A DNA stretch of 64,000 nt from positions 27,503,501-27,567,500 of the forward strand of contig NC_057916.1 in assembly GCF_018873765.1 (NCBI RefSeq). Reading direction: 5' to 3'. The position numbers were made by a program, and so were the translations under genes. Below, one piece after another: positions 1,851-57,600 of the stretch (positions are counted from its first letter, which is position 1; the number at the start of each line of letters is the position of its first letter). Source of the stretch: Telopea speciosissima. Lineage: Eukaryota; Streptophyta; Magnoliopsida; Proteales; Proteaceae. The notes beneath the pieces were generated by a model. It did no database searches, was not told where the DNA came from, and saw only the letters and a list, made by a program, of their open reading frames with translations.

Positions 1851-1873
1851 TCTCTCTCTCTCTCTCTCTCTCT
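1851..1873. repeat. (TC)n microsatellite
   Basis: About 11 TC units abut the stop codon of the F-box pseudogene: its minus-strand TAG runs directly into AGAGAG. Confidence 0.9.
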
Positions 1874-3191
1874 ACCAAGAAATTGGTGTGAACCAGATGG
1901 GCGGAGACAGAGAAGAAGATGAATGTGAATCATTTGAAAAAAAAGGTTCAATGCTGTTATCTTCAAAGTGAAACACACCCAAATCATGGCAAGTTGTTGG
2001 TTTATCTAAAATGGCTGAAGTATTGTGATAGAATTCATCTGTGAAATATATGGAGTTTCCTCCTCTAAATCCAGGGCAGTCGAAAAGTGTGGCCGCCGCC
2101 GCCGAGAGAGAGAAGCCTGTACTTGTGCCAATAAATAGCATTTGATCACCCAAGTCCTCCTCCTTAATCCAGCGCCGACGTTGTGGATCTAACTTAAATA
2201 TCTTGAACATAACAGTTTTGGGGGATGTTAAACCAACTACAAATTCTGCACATCTTATAACCATCAGCAGCTCTCCACGACATTCCACCAAATAAACAGA
2301 CTTCACCATCTCAGTGGTAAGTCTCTTAAGATCATCTTCTGCTGGAGGAGCAATGTTACAGCTTGTTCTTTTTGGGTGAAGAGGAGGATTACTACCTAAT
2401 TCCACAAGCATAAGATCATATTCGGAAGTAATAGATTATAATGTCTTCAAGATATTCCCTCAAATGGGGATTTCTTCCAAAGATAGTCCATGCCCCATCC
2501 CCTGGTCTGGTCTACAGAAGGCTAAATTCCAGGTATAATAAATCGCTACGATCAAACAATCATCCAAATAATTAGAATTGTTGTTAGTCGTAGCAGCAGC
2601 AGCAGGAGGAGGCGGCGACAACATTAACATAGCCTTGCGAATGTAGTTTGGGCTCCGTTCAATCCAGTCAAAGAAAGGTCCCCCACCGAGAGAAGGAAGA
2701 GTAGATTGAGGTGGAAGTTCAATTCGAACCCTAGTAAATGGATTCAGAAGAAAATTGCATCCCTTATTACCCACCATTATCAACCATCCCCAGTTAGACC
2801 CACAACACCGAGCGCCATAGACTTCAGGAGGCAATTCTAACCTAAAAACTTTCCCATGGAAGACACTGAAAAACCCATGATGATGATGATGATGATCCTC
2901 TGACTCTGAGGACTCTGAGGAGGAAAGCATGAGGCATGGGAGTTGAGGTCGAAGGAGAAACTGCCGTATTTTCCTGGCAGCAATAGCAATCGATTGCCAG
3001 GACCTACAAACTGCGCTAAAACGATGAAAATCCACCAAGTCTAACTTGTTTACGATTTCCAGAATTATGATATCCTCTGGAAGTAGTAATAGTGCAATAT
3101 TATTATTCTCGACATCATCATGGCAATTTTCAATAGACTTCTTCAACCGCTTTCTATTGGTATCGCAATCGTCCTCCGGAAGGAAAGCCAT
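1872..3191 (-). pseudogene. F-box/DUF295 protein, broken tandem copy
   Basis: This is a close paralogue of the intact gene at 5156-6439, and the likeness runs through the 3' flank. The 5' frame (ATG at 3191 to a stop at 2460) encodes the F-box (LPEDIIILEIVNKLDLVDFH, then CRSWQSIA) and the middle region. The 3' frame (2411 to 1872) encodes the DUF295 end (GDQMLFIGTSTGFS, YFTDEF, DLGVFHFEDNSIEPF). Against the paralogue, a 5-nt insertion just after the AFCRP codons (near 2500) shifts the frame, and a deletion of about 20 nt near 2425-2440 shifts it back, leaving stops between. A spliced intron is unlikely because the intact copy has none there. The translation also has six His in a row where the paralogue has Ser-Glu repeats. 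It is probably non-functional unless a truncated F-box protein is made. Confidence 0.85.
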
Positions 3192-3874
3192 GCTATCTCA
3201 GCTTACTACTACTGCATATAACCCCCCACCCACGGCACAGATAGATATGGATACCACTACTGTCTGTCTGTGTACCTCCTGCTCCTGCTGCTCCTGCTCC
3301 AATTAAATGAAATCACTGGAGTAAATATACACCACCACCTACTACAGAATAATATATATTTGCAATTGAAAAGTGATTTATACAAGAAGTGAGGATGAAA
3401 ACGTAAGAATCCAACGGTTACAAGATCACTCACTCACACAAGGAGTCTTCTTCAACCGAGAATTTCTCACAACAACAGCTTTCTCCTGAGTCATAGCTAA
3501 CCACTCTTTCTGCTGATTTTATCTTTATCTCTTCTTCTTCTGTAACAATCAAGTTAGTTACGTGTAGAGGATGGATATATTTGAGTACCTGGAGTGGAGC
3601 GACGATTTCCCACTTATAAATTGATTCTAATTTTTTTTTTCTTTCATAGGAAGCAAGCCCTAATGCCGCTAGCTACTACAAGCACTATTGTTCATGATCT
3701 GGATTTTGCTTTCTGATGATCCTCAAGGGCAACACGCTCAGGGACTCTGAGATTTTAACACGGCTATAACCCACCTAATAGAAACCCGAAACGCATGAAC
3801 ACTCAAAACAGATCTTGCTCTCCTCGAGCCGTGACGGGAGTTGGAGGGTCTGGCGTATGGAAACCACGGATCTT
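3192..3874. other. upstream region of the F-box pseudogene
   Basis: Part of this resembles the flank of the intact copy: 'atttcccactt' followed by an AAACTGA/AAATTGA-like stretch occurs near 3608 and near 6649. This suggests that the duplication included the promoter. No other gene is seen. Confidence 0.45.
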
Positions 3875-5155: not shown

Positions 5156-6439
5156 CTACCAAGAAACTGGAGTGAACCAAATGGGTGGAGACAATGAGGA
5201 ATGTGAATAATTTGAGAAAAAAGGTTCAATGCTGTTATCTTCCAAGTGAAAGACACCCAAATCATGGCAATCCGTCGGTCCAAGTACCATGGATACAATA
5301 TCGTGAGAGTAATCATCTGTGAAATATATGCAATTTCCTCTAAATCCAGGGTAGTCAAGTGCCGAGATAGAGAAACCGGTACTTGTGCCAATAAATAGTA
5401 TTTGATCACCCAAGTCGTTCACCTTAATCCAACACAGACGTTGTGGATCCAACTTAAATATCTTGAACACAACAGTTTTGGGGGATACTGAACCAACACC
5501 CCATTTAATAACCATCAGCAACTCTCCAAGACATTCCACCAAATAAGCAGACTTTTTCAACTCAGTTGGAAAGTTATTCTGATCTTCTTCCTCTTCTGCT
5601 GGTAGGGGAGCAATGTTACAACTTGTTACTTTTTGATGAGGAAATAACTCCACAATCATAAGATCATATTTTAAATTAATGGAATACAATTTTCCATTAT
5701 AGAAAATAAAGTCTTCAAAAGATGTCCTTAAAGGGAGATTTTCATTGGTGATGGCTGTCCATGCCCTATCCCCTGGTCTACAAAAGGCTAAATTGTAGCT
5801 ACAATAAATAGCTACAACCAAACAATCATCGGTGTTAACCAGAGAGGATAAAACAACATTGTTAGTAGCAGCAGCAGCAGGAGGAGGCGACAACATTAAC
5901 ATAGCCTTGCGAATGTAGTTTGGGCTCTTTTGAACCGACTCATATATAAATCCCTGACCCAGAGCAGGAATAGTAGCTTGAGGTGGAAGTTCGATTTGAA
6001 CCTTAGTGAATGGATTCAAAAGAAAATTGCATCCCTCAATATCCACCATTATCAACCATCCCCAGTTAGACCCACAACACCGAGCGCCATAGACTTCAGG
6101 AGGCAATTCTAATTTAAAAACTTTGCCATGTAAGAGACTGAAAAACCCATGCTCTGACTCTGACTCTGACTCTGACTCTGACTCTGAGGATGAAGATGAG
6201 GAAAGCATGAGCCATGGGAGTTGAGGTTGAGGGAGAAACTGCTGCCGTATTTTCTTGGCAGCAATGGCAATTGATTGCCAGGACCTGCAGACTGCACTAA
6301 AACGATGAAATCCCACCAAGTCTAACTTATTAACAATTAGAATCGTGATATCCTCTGGCAGTAATGCAACCGTATTAATAATATTCTTGACATCCACTGT
6401 AGTAGTATTGCTATTGCAATCGTCGGGAAGGGAAGCCAT
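5156..6439 (-). CDS. F-box protein with DUF295 C-terminal domain
   Basis: A single-exon gene of 427 residues starts at ATG 6439 and is preceded by a TATA-like motif. An F-box lies at about residues 26-60 (LPEDITILIVNKLDLVGFHR, CRSWQSIA). The C-terminal third carries the DUF295 pattern (LGDQILFIGTSTGFS, then FRGNCIYFTDD, then DLGVFHLEDNSIEPF). In this plant family the F-box binds SKP1 of an SCF ubiquitin ligase and the C-terminal part is thought to select the target. The substrate cannot be inferred. A Ser then Ser-Glu repeat at about residues 80-95 is encoded by a hexanucleotide microsatellite. A broken tandem paralogue lies about 2 kb downstream on the same strand. The family resembles SKIP23/KIB-type proteins, but I do not assign a symbol. 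Confidence 0.88.
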   Translation of the reverse strand: MASLPDDCNSNTTTVDVKNIINTVALLPEDITILIVNKLDLVGFHRFSAVCRSWQSIAIAAKKIRQQFLPQPQLPWLMLSSSSSSESESESESESEHGFFSLLHGKVFKLELPPEVYGARCCGSNWGWLIMVDIEGCNFLLNPFTKVQIELPPQATIPALGQGFIYESVQKSPNYIRKAMLMLSPPPAAAATNNVVLSSLVNTDDCLVVAIYCSYNLAFCRPGDRAWTAITNENLPLRTSFEDFIFYNGKLYSINLKYDLMIVELFPHQKVTSCNIAPLPAEEEEDQNNFPTELKKSAYLVECLGELLMVIKWGVGSVSPKTVVFKIFKLDPQRLCWIKVNDLGDQILFIGTSTGFSISALDYPGFRGNCIYFTDDYSHDIVSMVLGPTDCHDLGVFHLEDNSIEPFFSNYSHSSLSPPIWFTPVSW

Positions 6440-6563
6440 TCTAAATCACTGGTTTGAGTATCTGGAGATTTTATGATCCACTAGGGGAGGTATGTATCTC
6501 ACTCTTCTCCAATTCTCCGATTCTCTGCCTTAATTGATTCGAACTCATACACTTTTCATTATC

Positions 6564-20879: not shown

Positions 20880-21496
20880 TGATGTAGGCATAGAGGCAGT
20901 AGTGGAGGGCGTGGAAGCCCAGCTCAACCACCCAAAGATCCTTAGAAGATCTGAGAGAATAAGAGCCCAACGTGGCTAACTGGATGCTGATTTGGTGTTG
21001 ATTGCAATCAAGGATTGATTGCAATCAAGGATTGATTGACTGATTTACAGTTGATTGCAATCAAGGATCCTTGCTTCGCTGATTTGGTGTGATTGCAATC
21101 AATGATTGATTGACTAATTTACAGTTGATTACAATCAAGGATCCTTGATTGGCTGAATTGGTGTGATTGCAATCAAGGATTGGTTGGCCGATTTACAGCT
21201 GATTGCCTTCTAATTCTATCCTTAATTAGTTTTTTTACCTAATATGCTATGTTTTTATTTAGTATGTTCTTATTTTGGAAAATCTCAATCTTAGGCTTGG
21301 AGATTGAGATTGGGCTTTGGGAATCCTATAAAAGGATCTACTGTAATAAGGAAAGGGAGAATTATTGAGTAATTAATACTTTTGGCCTCCATTGGAGTGT
21401 TTCCAAGGAACTTGCGAGTTCCATTTTTTGGTATGTTCAAGTGTTAATTTCCTCCCTTCCCTTGCTCGATCCTACCCTTGGCACAAGGCTGCTCCA
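20880..21496 (+). repeat. 5' LTR of the Gypsy element
   Basis: 617 bp, TG...CA. The last 190 bp or so match 25073-25263 closely, including the TATA-like CCTATAAAAGGATC. The first 100 bp are open in one frame, ending LRRSERIRAQRG and a stop at 20979. The LTR is followed by TGTTATCAAAGCC, a degenerate initiator-Met tRNA primer binding site. Confidence 0.85.
20990..21205. repeat. tandem repeat within the LTR
   Basis: About three imperfect units of roughly 65-75 bp contain GATTTGGTGTGATTGCAATC and GATTTACAGYTGATT. Each carries the perfect palindrome TTGATTGCAATCAA or a one-base variant, often followed by GGATCCTTG. Confidence 0.75.
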
Positions 21497-24400
21497 TTTT
21501 TGTTATCAAAGCCGACGCAAGGCATAGCGAGTATGGCTCCCAAGCGTAGAGAAGGTCACACTGGGAACAACGGAGACGTTACGTTAGGAAACAAGAATGC
21601 TCAACTGCGTCAACAACTTGCTACTTTGAGCATCGAGATAGAGCATTTGCATAATGCATCTCCACAGTCCAGCAGGTCGGGTGATGCAACAAACAGTCAA
21701 TCCCCTTCTTTTGGTAGGCATACAGTTGGAAGGAGACCACTGCAACGGCCTGCTCAGGAAGAGCGAGAAGTCGACTGGTTTCATAAATTGAAGGGTGGCA
21801 TTCCGAAGTTCACAGGAAACGAATCCCCTCATGAACTGGTAGACTGGTTAGCATTGGTAAATGAAGTATTCGATGCTCGATCGGTGCCAGAGAACCAGCA
21901 GGTCAACATCATCATCATGAGGATGAGAAGGAAGGCTATCACGTGGTGGCGCCGCGAGAAGCAGACCCGTCTTCATGATGGCCAACAACCGGTTACCAAA
22001 TGGCATAAGATGGAGGAGCGCATACGCAAATACTACCTGCTCGGAACGTATCAACGTGAACTGTACCACCGTTACCAACACTTGAAGCAAGGTATGAAGA
22101 CTATCGACTAGTACACTACTGAGTTTAATGAATTGCTAATTCGCAACAACATCAGTGACCTGGCGGAAATGCTAGTGAACAAAAATATATTGGGGGATTG
22201 CAACCCTTTATCCAAGAAGTGATCGAAGTTTTGGAGATTTTGGACTTGAGTGACGCCCACCAACGTGCTGTGAAGATTGAACGATCTTGATAGCGAGGAC
22301 AACAATGCCCTTTCCCCATCACTCGCACCCAAAATGGAGTAAAACCAACTATCAAAGGCGGCCGATCACCTACACCCGTTGTTGGTTCGCCTCCCTCCAA
22401 CCGTCCCATTCCAACAACCAATACGGACCAACGAACCATGACCAATGTTCGATGCTATGCATGCGGAGAACTTGGGCACCGCGTAGATTCTTGTCGCAGT
22501 GTCATGGGAAGACCCAGCAACAAGGGGCTTCTCATTGAAAATGATGTGGAAGCTGAAGAGGAAGGACTTATTGATGTTGATTTGGTCGAAAAACCAATGT
22601 ATGATAGTTCCAATGCCGATGAGTTTGGACAAACACTATACGCCGACACTGGTGAATTTCTTATGATGCGTCTGGTCTTCCTTAGCCTACGTGTTGAGTT
22701 GGGAGATCACTGGCTGCGACACAATATCTTCCACTCCGCCTGCACCGTGTCCAAGAAAGTGTGCCAACTCATCATTGATTTGGGATGTTGCAAGAACGTA
22801 GTCTCTGAAGAAGCGGCTTGCAAATTGAAGCACGAAATGAAGGATTACCTCTCACCATACAAAATGACATGGCTTTAAAAAGGGACTAAGGTAACCGTAT
22901 CCAAACGTTGTTTAGTTTCTCTATCCATCGCTGCCACTTATTTTGACACTGTTTGCTGTAATGTCCTGCCTATGGACGCCAGTCATATCATTCTTGGAAG
23001 ACCTTGGTAGTTTGATAGACAAACCAAACATGACGGGTACCATAATACATACACCTTCACTCATAAGGGCAAGAAAATCACTTTAGCTCCTTCTAAAGAG
23101 CCCCTTCCTATTTCCAACCCATCCTCTACTGGTTTGCTCACATTTAGACACCTAAGAGGTGCTCTAGAAAATGTCGATGTTGTGTATATGTTGTTGAACA
23201 AGGTCAGGAATTCTGATCTTGCAGTGACAGAAGTTCCCACATTATTCCAAACCTTAGTGCATGAAGTTCAAGATATTTTTCCAGCTGATCTTCCACAGGG
23301 ACTTCCACCGATTTGAGAAATCCAACACCAGATTGACTTGGTGCCTGGCGCCACTCTACCAAATCTCCCTCATTACAGGATGAGCCCTATAGAACATGAG
23401 AAACTGTAGCGACAAGTTATCGAGCTGATGGACAAGGGATTTGTTAGGGAAAGCCTGAGTCCGTGTGCTGTCCCTGTACTATTTGTGCCAAAGAAAAATG
23501 GAAAATGGCGGATGTGCATCGATAGCAGGGCCATTAATAAAATAACGGTAAAATACCGTTTCCCCATTCCAAGGCTGGACGACTTGTTAGATTAACTTGC
23601 CGGTGGGACGGTGTTTTCAAAGTTGGATCGAAAGAGTGGATATCACCAACTCCGAATCCGCCCGGGTGACGAATGGAAGACCGCGTTCAAAACATGCGAT
23701 GGGCTGTTCGAATGGTTGGTAATGTCGTTTGGCCTATCCAACGTGCCTTCTACTTTCATGCGCTTCATGGCATATGTGCTTCGTCCCTCTTGGGAAGGTT
23801 TGCAGTAGTCTATTTTGATGACATTTTAATTTATAGTAAGACTACTGGCAAACATCTGCAGCATGTCCGAGTGATGTTCTATGTGTTGCGATAGGAATGT
23901 CTTTTTGTAGCTCCAGAAAAATGCTATTTTATGATGGCCAAAATCCTTTTCTTGGGAATCTATATTTCAAGGGAGAAGATAGCAGTTGACGATTCTAAAA
24001 TTGAAGTGATCAAGAACTGGCCGACCCCCCGAAACATTCACGAAGTGCACAGCTTTCACGGGCTAGCGTCCTTTTATAGGCGATTTATCTCACATTTCAG
24101 CACTATCGCCGCTCCTCTCACCTCTTGTATGAAGAAAGGGGTCTCCGACTGGACGAGTGATGCTCAATCAAGCTTCGACCAGCTCAAGAGAAAGCTTAGC
24201 ACGGCCCCAGTCCTTGCCTTGCCAGACTTCACCGTACTCTTTGAGGTTCACTGTGATGCCTCGGGCTTGGACATTGGCGCTGTCCTCAGCCAAGCAAGCT
24301 GACCTGTGGCATTATTTAGTGAACAAATCAGTGGTGCCCGGACTCGTTACAACACCTATGACCTGGACTTCTACGCTATGTTTTGCACTTTGGAACATTG

Positions 24401-38854: not shown

Positions 38855-39032
38855 GGGCAAGAGATCTTTCTACTTGGTCACATGGTCTCTACACAAGCGT
38901 CTGGGCTAATGGGTGAGCACATTTAGATATCTCTACTTGATCACATAGTCTCTACCCAAGGAGCAGAGGAGTCATCTCAAAGTACCCTGGGAGAGGGTGT
39001 AGCAAACATCACCAAGTAAAGATCTCTTGCCC
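38855..39032. mobile_element. MITE, 178 bp, probably MULE-type
   Basis: The left end GGGCAAGAGATCTTTCTACT and the right end, reversed, GGGCAAGAGATCTTTACTTG form the inverted repeats. The 9-bp flanks TAATAATAA (38846-38854 and 39033-39041) are identical, though the site is a (TAA)n tract. No coding capacity. Confidence 0.75.
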
Positions 39033-39045
39033 TAATAATAATAAG

Positions 39046-40656
39046 GGTTTTTTACAATTATCATCCTAAAAACTTTCATATCTACTATTACCCCCTTCCA
39101 AAAACTTTCAAACAACTACTACTCTCCCTTGTTGCATATTAATAACTAAGTGACCCCTACCGTTACAGATCCGTAACGGAGGGAGTTAGTAGTGATATTG
39201 TGCCGTTGTCACGGAATTTGTAGGACGAACATGCCCTTCGTCCAAAGTGAAATTTTTTATAATTACCACCCCAAAAACTTCCATATCTACTATTACCCCC
39301 CCCTAAAACTTGTAAACAACTGCTACCCTCCCCTGTTGCATACTAATGACAAAGTGACCCCCACCGTTACAGACTCGTAACGGAGGGGGTTAGTAGTGAT
39401 ACTGTGCCGTTATCTCAGAATTTGTAGGACGAAAATGCCCTTCGTCCAAAGTGAAATAAAACAATCTTCAAATGGTTATTTTTTTGTTTTCCTCATCTCA
39501 ACGACCTACCCTCCATAGGAATTAGGATGATTTACTACTATAACTACTCTTTTTCACAGAAACTGCGTTCCTTGAAGGAGAACCAGAACCCTTTATTTTC
39601 TCATCTTCTTCATCTTCTTGTCTCCCTATCCATATCCAACACTTCGCCACAGATACCTTTTCTTCTCTTGATTACCATTTTCGAAGCCAAATCTGTACAG
39701 AAAACCTTATCCCTGATGTGGTTATTGCCTTAGGTGAGAGAGAGTTTAGATTGAATCATATAGGTTAAGATGTTAATGGCTGAAAATGGTGAAGACAAAC
39801 TCATCGTTGTGGCTCGCCACATTGCTAAGACTATTGGCCGGACCGAGACCATGGCTGATGACATTTTTCAGTTCTTCTCCTCCTTCGACGGTCGCTTCTC
39901 CAGAGAGAAGTTGTCTGAGAAGATCAACAGCGACAATCCTCGAAGTTATGCTGCCTTGGAGCAGACTCTGAAATATCTTGATCGTTAGATCTCTCAATAT
40001 GTCTCGGCTGATCAGCCCATTTGGTCTGTTTTCGCCGATGCCTCAGCCTTCCTCGACACCATTGATGAATTAGTCTCCACATCCAGGGATTGGAATTCCT
40101 TAGTTGGCGAGAAATCCATTGCTGCTTGTTTGGCTCACGTTGATGAACTTCTTCAGCAGGCGATGTTTCGGCCGCCGACGAAGTTCTTCTTCCTCCGGTT
40201 TGCTGCAATAGGTGAAGTGAAGGTATAACCCTTTGAAGATTGTTTTATTTCACTTTGGACGAAGGGCATTTTCATCCTACAAATTCCGTGACAACGGCAC
40301 GGTATCACTACTAACCCCCTCCGTTACGGGTCTGTAACGGTGGGGGTCACTTAGTCATTAGTATGCAACAGGGGAGGGTAGCAGTTGTTTACAAGTTTTA
40401 GGGGGGTAATAGTAGATATGAAAGTTTTTGGGGTGGTAATTGTACAAAATTTCACTTTGGACGAAGGGCATTTTTGTCCTACAAATTTCGTGACGACGGC
40501 ACAGTATCACTACTAACCCCCTCCGTTACGGGTCTATAACGGTGGGGGTCACTTAGTTATTAGTATGCAACAGGGGAGGGTAGTAGTTGCTTGAAAGTTT
40601 TTTGGGGGGGGCAATAGTAGATATGAAAGTTTTTTGGGTGATAATTGTAAAAAACC
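39046..40656. mobile_element. Pack-MULE-like element carrying an EXO70 fragment
   Basis: A 1611-bp element with ends GGTTTTTTACAATTATCAYC in inverted orientation. Each terminal inverted repeat is itself a tandem pair of units of about 205-210 bp: 39046-39251 and 39252-39457 at the left, about 40236-40446 and 40447-40656 at the right. Every unit holds CCGTTACAG and CGTAACGG, then ATGCCCTTCGTCCAAAGTG. Both ends lie in (TAA)n, so the target duplication cannot be fixed. The interior is gene-derived sequence, not transposase. Confidence 0.82.
39776..40168 (+). pseudogene. EXO70B-type exocyst subunit, captured 5' fragment
   Basis: The translation begins MAENGEDKLIVVARHIAKTI and continues with FFSSFDGRFSREKLSEKI, an in-frame TAG at 39986, then ISQYVSADQPIW, AFLDTIDELVSTSRDW and ACLAHVDELLQQAMFR. 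It stops resembling the family shortly after. This is the N-terminal 130 residues or so of EXO70B1-like proteins (full length about 620), which tether vesicles at the plasma membrane and act in autophagy-related traffic and immunity. The fragment lies inside a MULE-type element with no rest of the gene, so it is a captured copy. Upstream 39500-39770 looks like captured 5' UTR. Confidence 0.85.
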
Positions 40657-42031
40657 ATAATAATAATCTAACTAAGTCATGGGTTATTCGAGAGATTTCT
40701 TATACTCGGCGTGAATCGAGCCAGAAATCTGGATTTTCCAAAATTAAAAAAATCCTCCTGTCCATCGCATGTGCACGAACTCAGTTGTTCCAGCTCAATC
40801 TGCGTTGTTCAAATGGGAGCTCATCCACGTGACGAGCTCTAGTGCCGCGCTACAAGATCTATAGCGCACCCCCACGCTATAGAGGAACTGGATCCAAGGG
40901 TGAAGGTAAGATTTGATCCAAGACAATCCAAGGCCAAAATTAATCGATCAATATAGTGTATCTTCATACCTAATTCAATGCACATAACATAACTCATCCC
41001 TCTAATGTATGCAAATACATAAGCTTTAAGCCCATAGTCCGTAGTCCAGCCAAAATCCCTAACCCAAATAATAAGAACATTTTTAGGGCTAATCAAGTAC
41101 CCTCTAGATTCTCAAAACCTCGTTTTATTGCTTATTAAGTTTTTGTAAAACCTCATATTTAGTAAGGGACCTTTAAAGTGTTAGATAATGCAACATTGGA
41201 TGCAATTTAAAGGTGCACTGAATAGTGCACAACACTAGAGAAGATAAAGATCCGACCTTCAAATCTATCAATGCACAAAATTTCAACTATATCTAATTTT
41301 TCACATGACAAATATTTATGATAATAAACTGAGTAACTTGCATCAGAACATTGCTGACAGAGGTTGCACTGTACTGTTTGAAGCAGAAATTTGAGTGTCA
41401 AAATCGTTGCCCTTTGAAAAATAAAGAATAATAATTTTTTTCTATTCGAGAAACGTGGACTTGAAATCACCCAAATATTTCTTCCACCAGAATAGGGTTA
41501 ATGAAGGCTGCCGACAGAAGTAATAAGCAGACAAGTAATATAAACGATGGCAACAACTCATGTTGAAGTCCGACGGCTTCCATCTTAATTTGGATTGAGA
41601 GATCAAAATCAAGAATCGTCAACCACACCCTTTGACATTACAAGTTGTGAAAGGGAATATGATCTTTGGATTTTTGAGAGATTAGAATTAAAAATCAATA
41701 GAGAAGTGATTTGATTTAGATTAATAAAAAAAACTAAAAAGACCAAGAAAAGACATAAACCGACTCCTAAAAGAAAAAAAGTTATGAGAAAAGATATGCA
41801 TAGATATATGCATTAATTAAACGTCTAACCAACATACAAAGCGTAACACATTCCCGCCTACCTCATAATTCCTTCTTATTGTTTTTTTGCTTGTTTTGCG
41901 CAGACAATACTGACTAACCTTCAACAGATCATAGTCACATAACCTAGAATTAAAACATCTAAAAGTTTTTTATTTTTGGGTGAGACATACAAAGTTATTA
42001 CAACCCATTGAAATGTAAGTAATAAACTAAA
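40657..42031. other. intergenic, no gene recognised
   Basis: A decayed foldback-like stretch lies at 40830-40890 (CTATAGCG and CGCTATAG). No gene was found in the rest. Confidence 0.4.
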
Positions 42032-51600: not shown

Positions 51601-54600
51601 GAAAATGCCAAATGAATGGAGGAGAAGCATTATGGTTACCGATTCACATAAATAAAGATGATATTGCAACCATCATGGAAACAATCTCTCCATGAAGCGG
51701 GGGTAAGGCTGCTTACAGCAGTAGCAGGAGCCTCACACACTAGCAATAACAATAGCGGCATAAAACTAAAGACCCATACTATAAATTTATGGGAGATGAT
51801 TATTGAAACCTACTTGAGAAAAGAGACTACTAAGTCATAACACCAATTTGGTTTTATGCCAGGAAGATCCACGATGGATGTAATTTTCTTATTTACGAGG
51901 CTCATGGAAAGATGTAGAAAGGATAAGAAGGATCTCCATATGGCCTTTATTAACCGAGAAAAAGCCTACGACAGAGTCCCTAGAGATTTAATCTGGCATA
52001 TATTAGAGAAGAGAAGGATTTCAAGTAAATATATGGACATAATTAAAGATATGTATGATAGGGTGGTGATGGAGATTCATCACCGAAATAATCTTGTTTT
52101 ATTAAGAATAAGTCTAGGATTGGGTTCTATACATGTTGGGCCTTTGATCCCATGGATTTCCAATGTAATAGGTAACTTTTATGGACCTAAGGTATGGGTA
52201 ATAGGGTTGCATACGTGATTAGTTGTTTTAGTTCCATACTTAGTTTGGGTTGGGTTCTATACATGTTGGGCCTTTGATCCCATGGGTTTCCAATGTAATA
52301 GGTCACTTTTATGGACCTAAAGAGTTATAGGGTTGCATATTGGATTTGTTGTTTTAGTTCTATAAGTTTTATTTTGGTGTTTTTGTTCATAAATTGGACC
52401 GGTTCAACCAATGGTGATGCAGACCCGGGTTGGAATAACCCTTATTGGGTGGCTTGAGGGCCTACCCAAGAAAAGAAACACTCAAATGCAAGGTTTAGTG
52501 GCAGAATAGTAACTAACTCAATGTCCAAAAGGAGGGTGGCAATTCCGTAAATAGATGGAAGTTTAAACATGAGAGAAAAGAAAATAGGGACAAACAGAAA
52601 TAAGGATGGAAGGGGTATTTATGGAAATTGGGTAAATAAAATAAAAGCACAAGAATCGTGAGAAAAGGGGAAAGAAAGTACCGTCTCCTACCTCTAACAC
52701 AAACCAGAGGCGGAAAACCAGATTTGATTTTAAGGAACTCACTCGATTGGCTTCAGTATACCTTGAGACTTCAATCGATGAATCATAACTCAAGACCTTT
52801 CTGAATCCCAGTAATATCAGACCTATTCCAAGAAGGATTGGCTGAAACAGATCTGGCTGAAAGCTTAGATTCAGATTTGATTTCTGATTAGAACTTCAAA
52901 CATATAGCAAACTCTCAAGGCTGTGAAGAGTGAATCATTTCTATCGCAGGGATGTTTTTTTACAACCTCAAACTGTTCTGAAAAAAACAGTAGAGATCGA
53001 TGTCAACACCTGGGCTGAGATCAGCATAATAGGGTATCTTTTAATGAAGGTAATTAATATGAAATTAAAGGGAAGTAGAAGAAGAAAGAAGACGAAAGAG
53101 GAGAAGAGGGGCTCATACGAGCAGTCAAACCACAAGAAGTTTCAACCAAACGAATTAATTTCATTCTTCAAAATCTGATTATTGTTTGATTACATGATAA
53201 ACTCACTAATAAAAACCGTATCAAATAAATAAATTAAATAACCTACTGAACCCGTAGACCCAGTTGGACCCGGTTCATCTTCAAATGGATACCCAAATGG
53301 GTTTGGGTCGGTCAAAGGCAGTGCACCTGCATCAAATGGTTCAATTTAAGTGATTTTAGTAGTTTCTTTTAAGTGTTTAGTAGGGCTAGATTAGGACTCT
53401 GTTTTGAGTCTATTTCAGTTTCCTAGTCAGTTAAGTTACCTAATAGGTTAAGGATTGGATTAGGCCTTTTCTTTTTTGTGTAGGAGCCTATTTTTGAGTC
53501 TTTTATATAAGGTTGCAAAGGGGGCAAGTATTGAACACCAATTTTGATAATGAAAACGATTTTTGCTACTCTTTATTGAAGATTTGTCTTGTGTTTGATC
53601 AATGCTTGTGGGATAGGTGTTTGATCCGATTGATACCTTACAGTGAGAAGCCTGGGTAATTCGCTGAAGGAATCGATGCTTGATCCGATTGACACCTTGT
53701 GGCGGAAAACCCAGGTGTTTGTTTTGGTTCTCTTTTGAAGCTCTCCATTATTGTTCTACTTGATTTTGAATCTATGGTTGAGGTTTGCGGTAATTCTTCT
53801 ACTAACAAAATCTATGATTTATTTTATTACCCCATCCCTAACCTAATATATTTTGGTTCCCATTGTTCTCTTGGTTTCACAATGTGTTATATAAATTTAT
53901 GTCCCACTGTTCTCCTGGTTTTATCCTAAAACTGAGTCACCTTTTGACAAAGAATTAGTAAACCTAATACCTAACCTAAAAACCCTAGAAACCCTAACTC
54001 TAAATTAGCTATTTTTCTCCTGTTTTAACCCTTAAAAAAATCATCTTTTGGTAAAAGATCCTGATTTGGCTCCTAGTTTGAGTATTTAAATCTGGGACTA
54101 CATTAGGTGGTGACTAGTGTATGAACTGTGGGAGGGTTAAGGTAGCAAATTCCCAAATTAAAATTAGGTTACATCAAGGATCAGCCCTTATTTCTTAGCG
54201 GTTATCATGCATGATCTAACCAAAGACATCCAAGATGAGGTTCTCTAGTGTATGTTTTTCGTTGACAAGACAAAAGCAGAGATTAACGCCAAGTTAGAGT
54301 TATGGAGATCAAACTTCGAATCAAAAGATTTTAAGATCGGTAGAACAAAGACAGAGTATACAGTGTGCAACTTTAGTTGCACTAGTGACTATTTTAGGTA
54401 TCTGAGTTCAATCATAAATAAAGAAGGTGACATAACGAATGATGTTGCTCAGAGAAATAAAATAGGTTGGATGAAGTGGAGGGGTGCGTCTAGAGTGTTG
54501 TGTGCTCGATGTATTCCTTTAAAGGTTATGATGTATAGTGTAGAATGTTGGGCTGTTAAGAAGCATCATATAGATAAACTAAGGGTAGCAAAGACGAGGA

Positions 54601-57600
54601 TGTTGAAATGGATGTGTGACAAAACTACAAAGAACAAAGTAAGGAATGAACACATTAGAGCTGAGTTGGGAGTAACTCCGACTCATGATAAACTACGAGA
54701 AAGTTGTTTGAGTTGGCATGGCCATGTTCAACGGAGGCCTAAGGATGCTAGAAAGATGTAACTTCAAATAGAGCTGATTGGAGAGCAAGGATCCAAGTAG
54801 CCACTAGCCAACCCCATTTAGTTGGTATAAGGCTATGTTGTTGTATATTTTGATGACATTCATTTTTTATTTTTTTTACATTGGATAGTTATTGGTGTCA
54901 CAAGTGTTTGTGACATTTCTAGAAGCCACTAGACAGACCAGAGCCCGTCGATTTTCATGGTTTTGTCAATCTAAACCATCTGTTCCTACTCAAAGTTGAA
55001 AGAGTGTACAATAATGGCCATAGTTCTGGTACGCATGCATTGACAAACACGAGATGCATGCTAATACATAAAAGGGGTATTTAATTGAATTAGACTCTAA
55101 AATATAACACATGGCTAATTTAGACCATGTACTCTCTATCCAACAGTTGGAATGGACATATAATCCGTCCATGTGGCAAAATAGATGTCTTGTGAGCTTT
55201 GGAAAATAACAGACCCATGGGACAATACTATTTCACCATTTACATTTAAATTTTTGGAAGCTGTATACTTTTTGCATTACTGCTTGGCAGCATTTCTTTA
55301 CTTTTTTTAATAAAAGTGGTTATTAATTTTTTTTTTTTTAAAAACTACTATCTACGTACTTATTCAAATCCCAAAAAAAAAAATAGCATAAACAGAAAAA
55401 TATGCCACAACACATTTTGAATGACAAAAAAAATTAGCCTAAGATTTATTTCAGATAGTTCTCACTCCTAAGCATAATTCTGCCCTCATAGTCATATAGT
55501 TCATTGTGCTTCAACAGAACTGGCTAAAATATTGGTGTTGGTTCAAGAATCAAAATGCATAATTCACTGGCATTTTGTTTTAAAGCCAGCACAATTTCCA
55601 GCCATTCAGGCTCATTTTAGGCATTTGAGTTACTCACTAATGCAGATAATTCAGCAAAAGTGGGCTTGTTTCCACTGAAATAAGCCTTGGGTTGGGTTCT
55701 ATGCATGTTGGGACTTTGGTCCAACATAATTTTACGGTATTAGGCTGCTTTTAAGGTGCCAAAATATGGACAGGAATTAAGACAGAATTTACTATATTAG
55801 TTAGTAAATTTAGAGTCCTATTTCTTTATTTTATTCATTATTAAGTGTCTTAATTAGGCTGTAATTCAGTCTCTTTCCTTTATTATTTCGGTTTCCTAGT
55901 TAGTTTCAGTTACTTTATTAGTTCAGCTAAAAGGAAAACAGATGAGATCCTTAAATAGAATCTTTAACAATTGGACTGCAGCTTTTTTAGTGGTAGTGGG
56001 CTATACTTTTAATAACCTAAAAGGAAAACAGATGAGATCCTTCTTTTCAATTCAATAAATCCTCACTCTCTCAATTGTCTATGACAATCAAAGGGTTCCA
56101 ACTCCAATCTTAGTGAAGCATTCTCATTTTTAGGGTTCAATGTGCTATCCTAGAGGTAATACAAATGATGAATTTATGTTATCTAAATGATGTGCCATAG
56201 GGTTCTTAAATTTTGTTTTAGTTTAATTCTGTCAAACTTTATTATCTATTTTTTGTTTTTTTTAGTATTTTAATATTTACCCAAGCATTTCAGAAAATAA
56301 TAAGCTGCACTAACTATAGTACTGATGCAAAAAATCATTAAGCACTTCTTTTTTGGAACCAATAGAAATGGCCAGCAAAAGGGGTTTTACAACTGAGTGG
56401 ATCCAAACATTGAATCAGGCAAGAACAACAACTCATGCATTCTTCAATGATGATGGATGAACTTGATTCACAAAAGATGACTTTAGAAAAATGAATTCAT
56501 CATAGCACTCCTAAAGAAAGGTCGAGTATCAAGACCTCGAAGATCTTGTAAAGCAGGTGGTTGTGGATTCCTTATCAAACTTAAATATCAATATGTTGGT
56601 CAAGTAACATGTCAAGCCTAGGATTCCGGACAGACAGCTATGACTGTGAAACTAATGTAGAGGGGCTAGGCTGCAAGAGAACAGCTCTAACACAGAATCT
56701 CAGCAAAACTCCTTGAAAACTGAACCGCAAGAGGCTTTTGTATCCTCTGATTAACAACTGTTGCAGCCACAGCAAAATACTCTGCTCAGGAATCAATGAG
56801 GTTCCCAGCAGCAACAAAACACCTTCTGTAAGATCTCAGGTATGCAAAAAATAGCAGAACAGCAGTAGGGTATCGATGAAAGATAGGAAAGAAGATAGAA
56901 AAAATAGATGGATGGATCAAGTCTCTCACTCTCACCTGAGGTATCTCACATCTCGTGAAGTCTCTCACCTCTCAGGAATTTCTCCCACTTGACTGCATCT
57001 CACAGAGCTCACGGTTGCTAAACAACTTCTTTTACTCCTCAAATCGTTGGCTGTATTCAGCCTTGTGCTTTATTTATAGAATCAATTACAACCTAATGCA
57101 AACTCTAGAAATAAATAAAACACCAAATATTAGTGGGAAACTAATTCCTAAACTGTATCTAATTACAAGACTGAATAAATCCTAATTATAATAAATATCT
57201 AACTATCTAACAGCCCTCACACAATAGCATAAAATTCCCTAAAATCTAGGACTAACCTATTAGCTATTACATAGGAAATAACTGAATAAGATAACCCAAT
57301 ATAACTCAATTTGATTCCTTGTATTAGTCTTCAAACTTGATCTTATCCAGCTGGCCATTATCTCCTAGAAACATTTTCAACCCAAGCTGTCTTGGGTGAT
57401 GCGGATCCGGGGTCTGAAAAACCCTACTCGGATCACTTATAGACCCACCCAATTATCAAAAGTCCAAATAATAGAAGGGCAATGGCAATCTTGTAAAAAC
57501 CAGAATTTTTTTAAGGGCTGTTAGGTAAGTAAAGAAGAAAGGGCTCAAAGGGAATTCCTATTTATTAACTAGGGGCAAACTTGGAAGCAAATATAAGGTA

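Follow-up and report, generated by a model that had tools for sequence, protein, structure and literature searches.

A multicopy Pack-MULE with tandem ends carries the beginning of an EXO70B1 gene in Telopea speciosissima

In the 64-kb stretch of Telopea speciosissima DNA analysed here (the window), the beginning of an EXO70B-type gene lies between long inverted ends, which raises the questions of what kind of element this is, from where and when it took the gene fragment, and whether the fragment has any role of its own. The preliminary description of the locus had proposed a Pack-MULE lacking a transposase, and the inverted arms, the target site duplications (TSDs), the match to a donor gene and the further copies in the genome leave very little doubt that window positions 39045-40657 are a Pack-MULE, i.e., a non-autonomous Mutator-like element (MULE). 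In the alignment of the window, the arms 39046-39479 and 40225-40656 are 92.6% identical over 434 bp, which gives the element the long TIRs of a MULE. The ends were therefore real and had been placed accurately to within one base, the element spanning 39045-40657 once the terminal GGG/CCA and the flanks are considered. Two features had been missed. The first is that each arm consists of two units of ~205 bp in direct tandem (Table 1); the left internal unit is 88% identical to the external one, lacks the terminal GGG and adjoins it directly, with no TSD between them. The second is a 52-bp segment to the right of the captured piece, considered as an extra gene fragment and ruled out as such, being MULE subterminal sequence: it is present in both arms of five of six single-TIR relatives and in one arm of the sixth (L059), and it is missing from the left side of the window copy, where the capture starts. 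The interior thus consists of the capture and MULE ends, and Pfam assigned no transposase family to any of three ORFs tested there. Rfam at the gathering threshold and a tRNA scan under the bacterial code gave no matches in the 64-kb window.

Table 1. Features of the Pack-MULE at the window locus
Feature	Position	Strand	Evidence
Left target site duplication, TAATAATAA	39036..39044	.	read from the sequence, scored in the TSD comparison
Left external TIR unit, ~205 bp, start GGGTTTTTTACAATTATCA	39045..39250	+	self-comparison, copies
Left internal TIR unit and 22 bp of common inner TIR	39251..39479	+	self-comparison, copies
Captured EXO70B1 5′ UTR	39476..39775	+	donor match, copy consensus
Captured EXO70B1 first ~132 codons, TAG at codon 71	39776..40172	+	ORF, Pfam, donor match
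MULE subterminal segment, 52 bp	40171..40222	-	also in single-TIR relatives
Right inner TIR and internal TIR unit	40223..40451	-	self-comparison, copies
Right external TIR unit, end ...GTAAAAAACCA	40452..40657	-	self-comparison, copies
Right target site duplication, TAATAATAA	40658..40666	.	read from the sequence, scored in the TSD comparison

The captured frame of the window copy opens at ATG 39776 and extends over ~130 codons with a single in-frame stop, the TAG at 39986-39988. Its second half resembles Exo70_N (E 1.7e-4; 22.2 bits, under the Pfam cut-off of 23.9); the first half gave no Pfam match, and a PDB search with the 132-residue fragment gave none up to E 0.1. The parent gene, whose existence the preliminary description had left to a genome search, was found intact on C2 (18879381-18881297), with 639 codons and both Exo70_C and Exo70_N. 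A protein search with the donor returned an identical Telopea speciosissima protein annotated as exocyst complex component EXO70B1. Among the 120 listed of 973 matches, many that bear a name are EXO70B1 or EXO70B1-like; the B-subfamily label rests on this search. Over 718 bp the window copy is 91% identical to the donor at the DNA level, and the consensus of all copies agrees with it at 300 of 316 positions of the 5′ UTR (95%) and 385 of 395 of the coding sequence (97.5%). Donor match, consensus and protein search thus bear out the assignment to EXO70B as well as the 5′ UTR and the early stop codon. An EXO70B-like gene on C3, initially a 75% match, was rejected as donor since the C2 gene is closer (79% identity of the C3 paralog to the consensus in the coding sequence, vs. 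97.5%). A copy on C11 (L054) was considered as a recombinant with the C3 paralog and rejected when the alignment was inspected by eye.

Similarity between the donor (L053) and the element is confined to 39476-40172. Past 40172 the donor continues as EXO70 and the element as MULE sequence, which also adjoins the TIRs in relatives with other cargo; the EXO70 similarity hence ends within the inverted ends and does not run past them, which would have told against a Pack-MULE. At the left junction TTAT is common to donor and MULE, and at the right junction GC. The Telopea donor and Macadamia EXO70B1 differ at 8 of 131 residues, and the copy consensus has the Telopea residue at all eight, so the capture probably took place after the split of the two lineages.

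Copies with the captured piece number at least 21 (22 long matches minus the donor), a lower bound set by scoring the best 40 of 93 candidates in the 823-Mb assembly; the search also returned the C3 paralog, another piece of the copy on C9 and 18 short matches in subterminal sequence. The copies have distinct flanks, as expected of an element that moved as a unit. TSDs were sought as the best-matching 9-bp duplication within 5 bases of each end, and a perfect one was found in 13 of the 21 copies, vs. 6 of 420 mismatched pairs of left and right flanks from different copies; in three of the 13 (L003, L008 and L009) the duplication is a run of A/T. The other eight copies have one mismatch (one copy), two (two copies), three (four copies) or five (one copy). 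The left TSD of the window copy lies inside a (TAA)n tract, where 3, 6 or 9 bp look alike in that copy alone, and its length is set by the other copies, among which perfect 9-bp TSDs at non-TAA sites include TAAAGAAAA, TTAATCTAA, AATATTTTA, TAAAATTTA and TATAATATA. Microsatellite targeting (cf. the accessible part of PMC5907723) was considered for the (TAA)n insertion and rejected, most of the other copies being at other sites. The ends belong to a repeated family, the opposite of which would have told against a Pack-MULE: 207 TIR-core sites were found in the genome with a pattern built on the EXO70B1-carrying family and biased towards it. The copy on C9 (L020, C9:57407378-57409490) carries an internal duplication, namely a second partial EXO70 piece (capture positions 389-690) and a second subterminal segment, before its right arm.

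Two units at both ends, several of them damaged, were counted by reading in 18 of the 21 copies; L016 and L017 have one left unit and two right units, whereas L019 has a single unit at each end and a perfect 9-bp TSD. The arrangement is that of the type 1 tandem-TIR Pack-MULEs of Ferguson and Jiang, with an external and an internal TIR in tandem at both ends, at least 100 bp of similarity and no TSD at the internal TIR. When external and internal units were compared in 16 copies, the only consistent differences were the terminal GG and one further site, three other flagged columns of the unit alignment being trimmed ends. Of the 20 copies in tandem or three-unit form, 15 entered the comparison of TIR units together with L019 and seven relatives; L008, L015, L020, L054 and L063 were left out for their broken or rearranged units, and the resulting unit tree is poorly resolved. 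A phylogeny of the captured segment, with donor and C3 paralog as its root, is star-like overall: L019 and L005 form a pair (support 87), the remaining 19 copies fall into one group (support 88), and most of the other branches are weak. Two donor bases are common to L005 and L019 alone. We favour, as not proven, the order in which capture by a single-TIR element was followed by doubling of the ends and then by a burst.

The grouping of L019 with a tandem-TIR copy, L005, speaks for a different course, in which L019 descends from a tandem-TIR element and is not the ancestral form, and Ferguson and Jiang, in the accessible part of PMC3310237, discuss how an external TIR may be used aberrantly together with an internal one. 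Such a derivation is possible and yet somewhat doubtful: it requires the loss of a unit at both ends with the GGG termini and the 9-bp TSD nevertheless kept, and both L019 units have the non-external base at alignment column 117, a column that varies in single-TIR relatives (6 G, 5 C, 3 A). Moreover, placing L019 alone as the first branch was not rejected (delta logL 0.10 in an AU test with fewer replicates than advised).

Whatever the order of these events, the copies bear the marks of decay. The copies differ from their consensus by 3.0% at first, 4.0% at second and 4.0% at third codon positions; in the UTR the figure is 2.7%. The codon changes in the copies comprise 186 missense, 98 synonymous and 14 stop changes, where 182.3, 82.9 and 14.0, respectively, are expected under neutrality, given the copies' own mutation spectrum and the majority consensus as ancestor; no clear sign of selection, purifying selection included, was seen on the captured frame. 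C>T/G>A changes affect 95 of 1111 CG sites (8.6%), 132 of 1358 CHG sites (9.7%) and 78 of 4189 CHH sites (1.9%). In plants, long-standing CG and CHG methylation marks silenced transposons, and we read the copies, from this pattern of base loss, as silenced passengers.

EXO70B1 is linked, in the accessible parts of the literature, to immunity and autophagy-related transport, and the preliminary description had raised the possibility of small RNAs acting on the parent gene. The copies would then be sources of small RNAs that silence or tune EXO70B1 in trans. The close identity of the consensus to the donor in both 5′ UTR (95%) and coding sequence (97.5%) would suit this role, as would the CG and CHG decay, which is that of methylated transposons; in addition, Pack-MULEs possibly encode small RNAs (PMC8277862, accessible part) and small RNAs of 24 nt have been mapped to MULEs in rice (PMC4858842, accessible part). 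We nonetheless consider it improbable on the record left in the donor. Donor and consensus have 26 differences, among which seven may be C>T/G>A losses in the donor, six in CHH and one in CG context; none is in CHG, vs. 132 of the 305 such losses in the copies. At two of the seven the C3 paralog has the donor base, so these may not be donor changes. Possible losses on the element side number eight (four CG, three CHG and one CHH). The missing CHG loss in the donor would argue, weakly and on small numbers, against lasting methylation in trans. The donor frame, furthermore, is intact and constrained, the differences from the consensus in the coding sequence being eight synonymous and two non-synonymous, as expected for a constrained gene. 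Less probable still is the broader proposal that the 21 or more methylated copies, with the 5′ UTR and start of EXO70B1, form a dispersed small-RNA source adjusting EXO70B1 dosage and that their spread was driven by end doubling, the doubled ends being a better transposase substrate than those of single-end sisters.

A truncated peptide acting on the parent gene had also been suggested, and finds no support in copies that decay neutrally. It would comprise up to ~132 codons of EXO70B1 together with ~18 that the MULE end contributes. No stop interrupts the consensus frame, and in 4 of the 21 copies (L003, L010, L016 and L019) an ATG and an unshifted open frame extend through the capture; L017 is open without an ATG, and in L006 the reading continues beyond the capture only after a frame shift. 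Against this, stops and missense changes fit the neutral expectation and the window copy stops at codon 71, so that there is very little chance that such a peptide is made and retained by selection. The neutral frame together with the C loss at CG and CHG makes any functional peptide from the captured frame unlikely.

How a transposase-free element could have spread is suggested by its relatives. The fetched loci that share its TIRs include six non-autonomous elements with both arms in view (L055-L060), in five of which Pfam identified the cargo: DUF630 (L055), HMG-CoA reductase (L056), PPR (L058), Myb-like (L059) and LRR (L060). L057 has no ORF of 60 residues, so Pfam covered the other five elements (six translations, five matched). 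One TIR family has hence captured fragments of at least five gene families besides EXO70B1. L056 and L060 have LRR-side sequence in common and differ in part of their cargo. A TIR match was also found in L061, L062, L064 and L065. Finally, the 9.4-kb locus L066 has TIRs 81-84% identical to those of the EXO70B1-carrying family and encodes, between them, DBD_Tnp_Mut (9.6e-7) and SWIM (1.6e-5), both over the Pfam cut-off, and a MULE domain split over two partial matches, neither of which reaches it. The Pack-MULE thus shares its TIRs with an element of MuDR type, which may be its transposase partner; the partnership is unproven because the TIRs are only 81-84% identical, the MULE domain is below cut-off and the right end is altered. 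Elsewhere in the genome there are at least 150 MULE transposases (the best 150 of 827 candidates, all over cut-off). When the TSDs of seven relatives were tested, a perfect 9-bp duplication beside GGG (or GAG) termini was found only in L057 and L059; L055 has one mismatch, L056 matches only by a shift within an A run, and L058, L060 and L066 have no convincing TSD.

A foldback, PIF/Harbinger-like (3-bp TAA TSD) or hAT element, which the TAA repeats flanking the window copy and the foldback-like tandem palindromic ends might bring to mind, has next to no chance of being the right identification, given the MuDR-type transposase encoded by a TIR relative and the 9-bp TSDs outside TAA sites, by which PIF/Harbinger and hAT origins were rejected.

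For the Pack-MULE we propose the following history. A single-TIR MULE would have copied the donor segment by template switching, one subterminal segment being replaced; the 4-bp and 2-bp junction matches fit this mechanism, which rests on them, a 2-bp match easily arising by chance. The element ends would then have been doubled in tandem, and, with a related MuDR-type transposase acting on it in trans, the tandem-TIR form would have spread in a burst. CG/CHG methylation would later have silenced the copies, which would since have decayed with no selection to keep the frame.

Elements of this kind are already known, as are tandem ends and multicopy spread. Pack-MULEs of rice and other plants, as Jiang et al. 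reportedly set out in 2004, have MULE TIRs, a TSD, a host gene fragment, no transposase and an unlinked donor, and the Telopea element has all of these rice-type features. The closest likeness is to PM-ZIBP, a non-autonomous tandem-TIR Pack-MULE family of tomato (PMC3310237, on whose accessible part the tomato comparisons rest): both have tandem TIRs and one early-branching single-TIR copy, which in PM-ZIBP has the longest branch and is thought to be the oldest. The two differ in cargo, which is EXO70B1 in Telopea (Proteaceae) and a zinc-ion binding protein in tomato, and the Telopea family is set apart by its at least 21 copies, two three-unit forms and one single-TIR form. The captured frame is neutral in Telopea, whereas conservation of the PM-ZIBP fragment equals or slightly exceeds that of the TIRs. 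The type 2-46 MULEs of tomato, according to the same source, share the tandem TIRs and high copy number (29) and, unlike the Telopea family, carry no gene fragment. In the literature found that names both Pack-MULEs and EXO70, the accessible parts mention no MULE that has captured EXO70. The Telopea family provides an independent case of a tandem-TIR Pack-MULE from Proteaceae. Its donor is identified and intact, its copies have one, three or four units, and relatives sharing its TIRs hold other cargo, which makes it testable whether end doubling raises transposition. The CG/CHG decay and the neutral frame also make it a clean example of how a captured fragment of an immunity-linked gene need not mean function.

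Other features of the window were observed in passing. Directly upstream of the Pack-MULE, in the same (TAA)n tract, a separate MITE-like element of ~178 bp with inverted ends GGGCAAGAGATCTTT occupies 38855-39032; the two adjoin through the microsatellite, an arrangement reminiscent of the SaTar arrays in guayule and rice (PMC5907723, the accessible part of which does not mention TAA). The remaining observations were made by eye. Two similar, adjacent F-box-like genes lie on the minus strand at 1872-3197 and 5156-6445; a frame break or stop divides the first of them into two ORFs. ORFs at 21377-22878 resemble a retrotransposon gag with a CCHC zinc knuckle, and an ORF at 54249-54761 resembles the end of a LINE-type reverse transcriptase.
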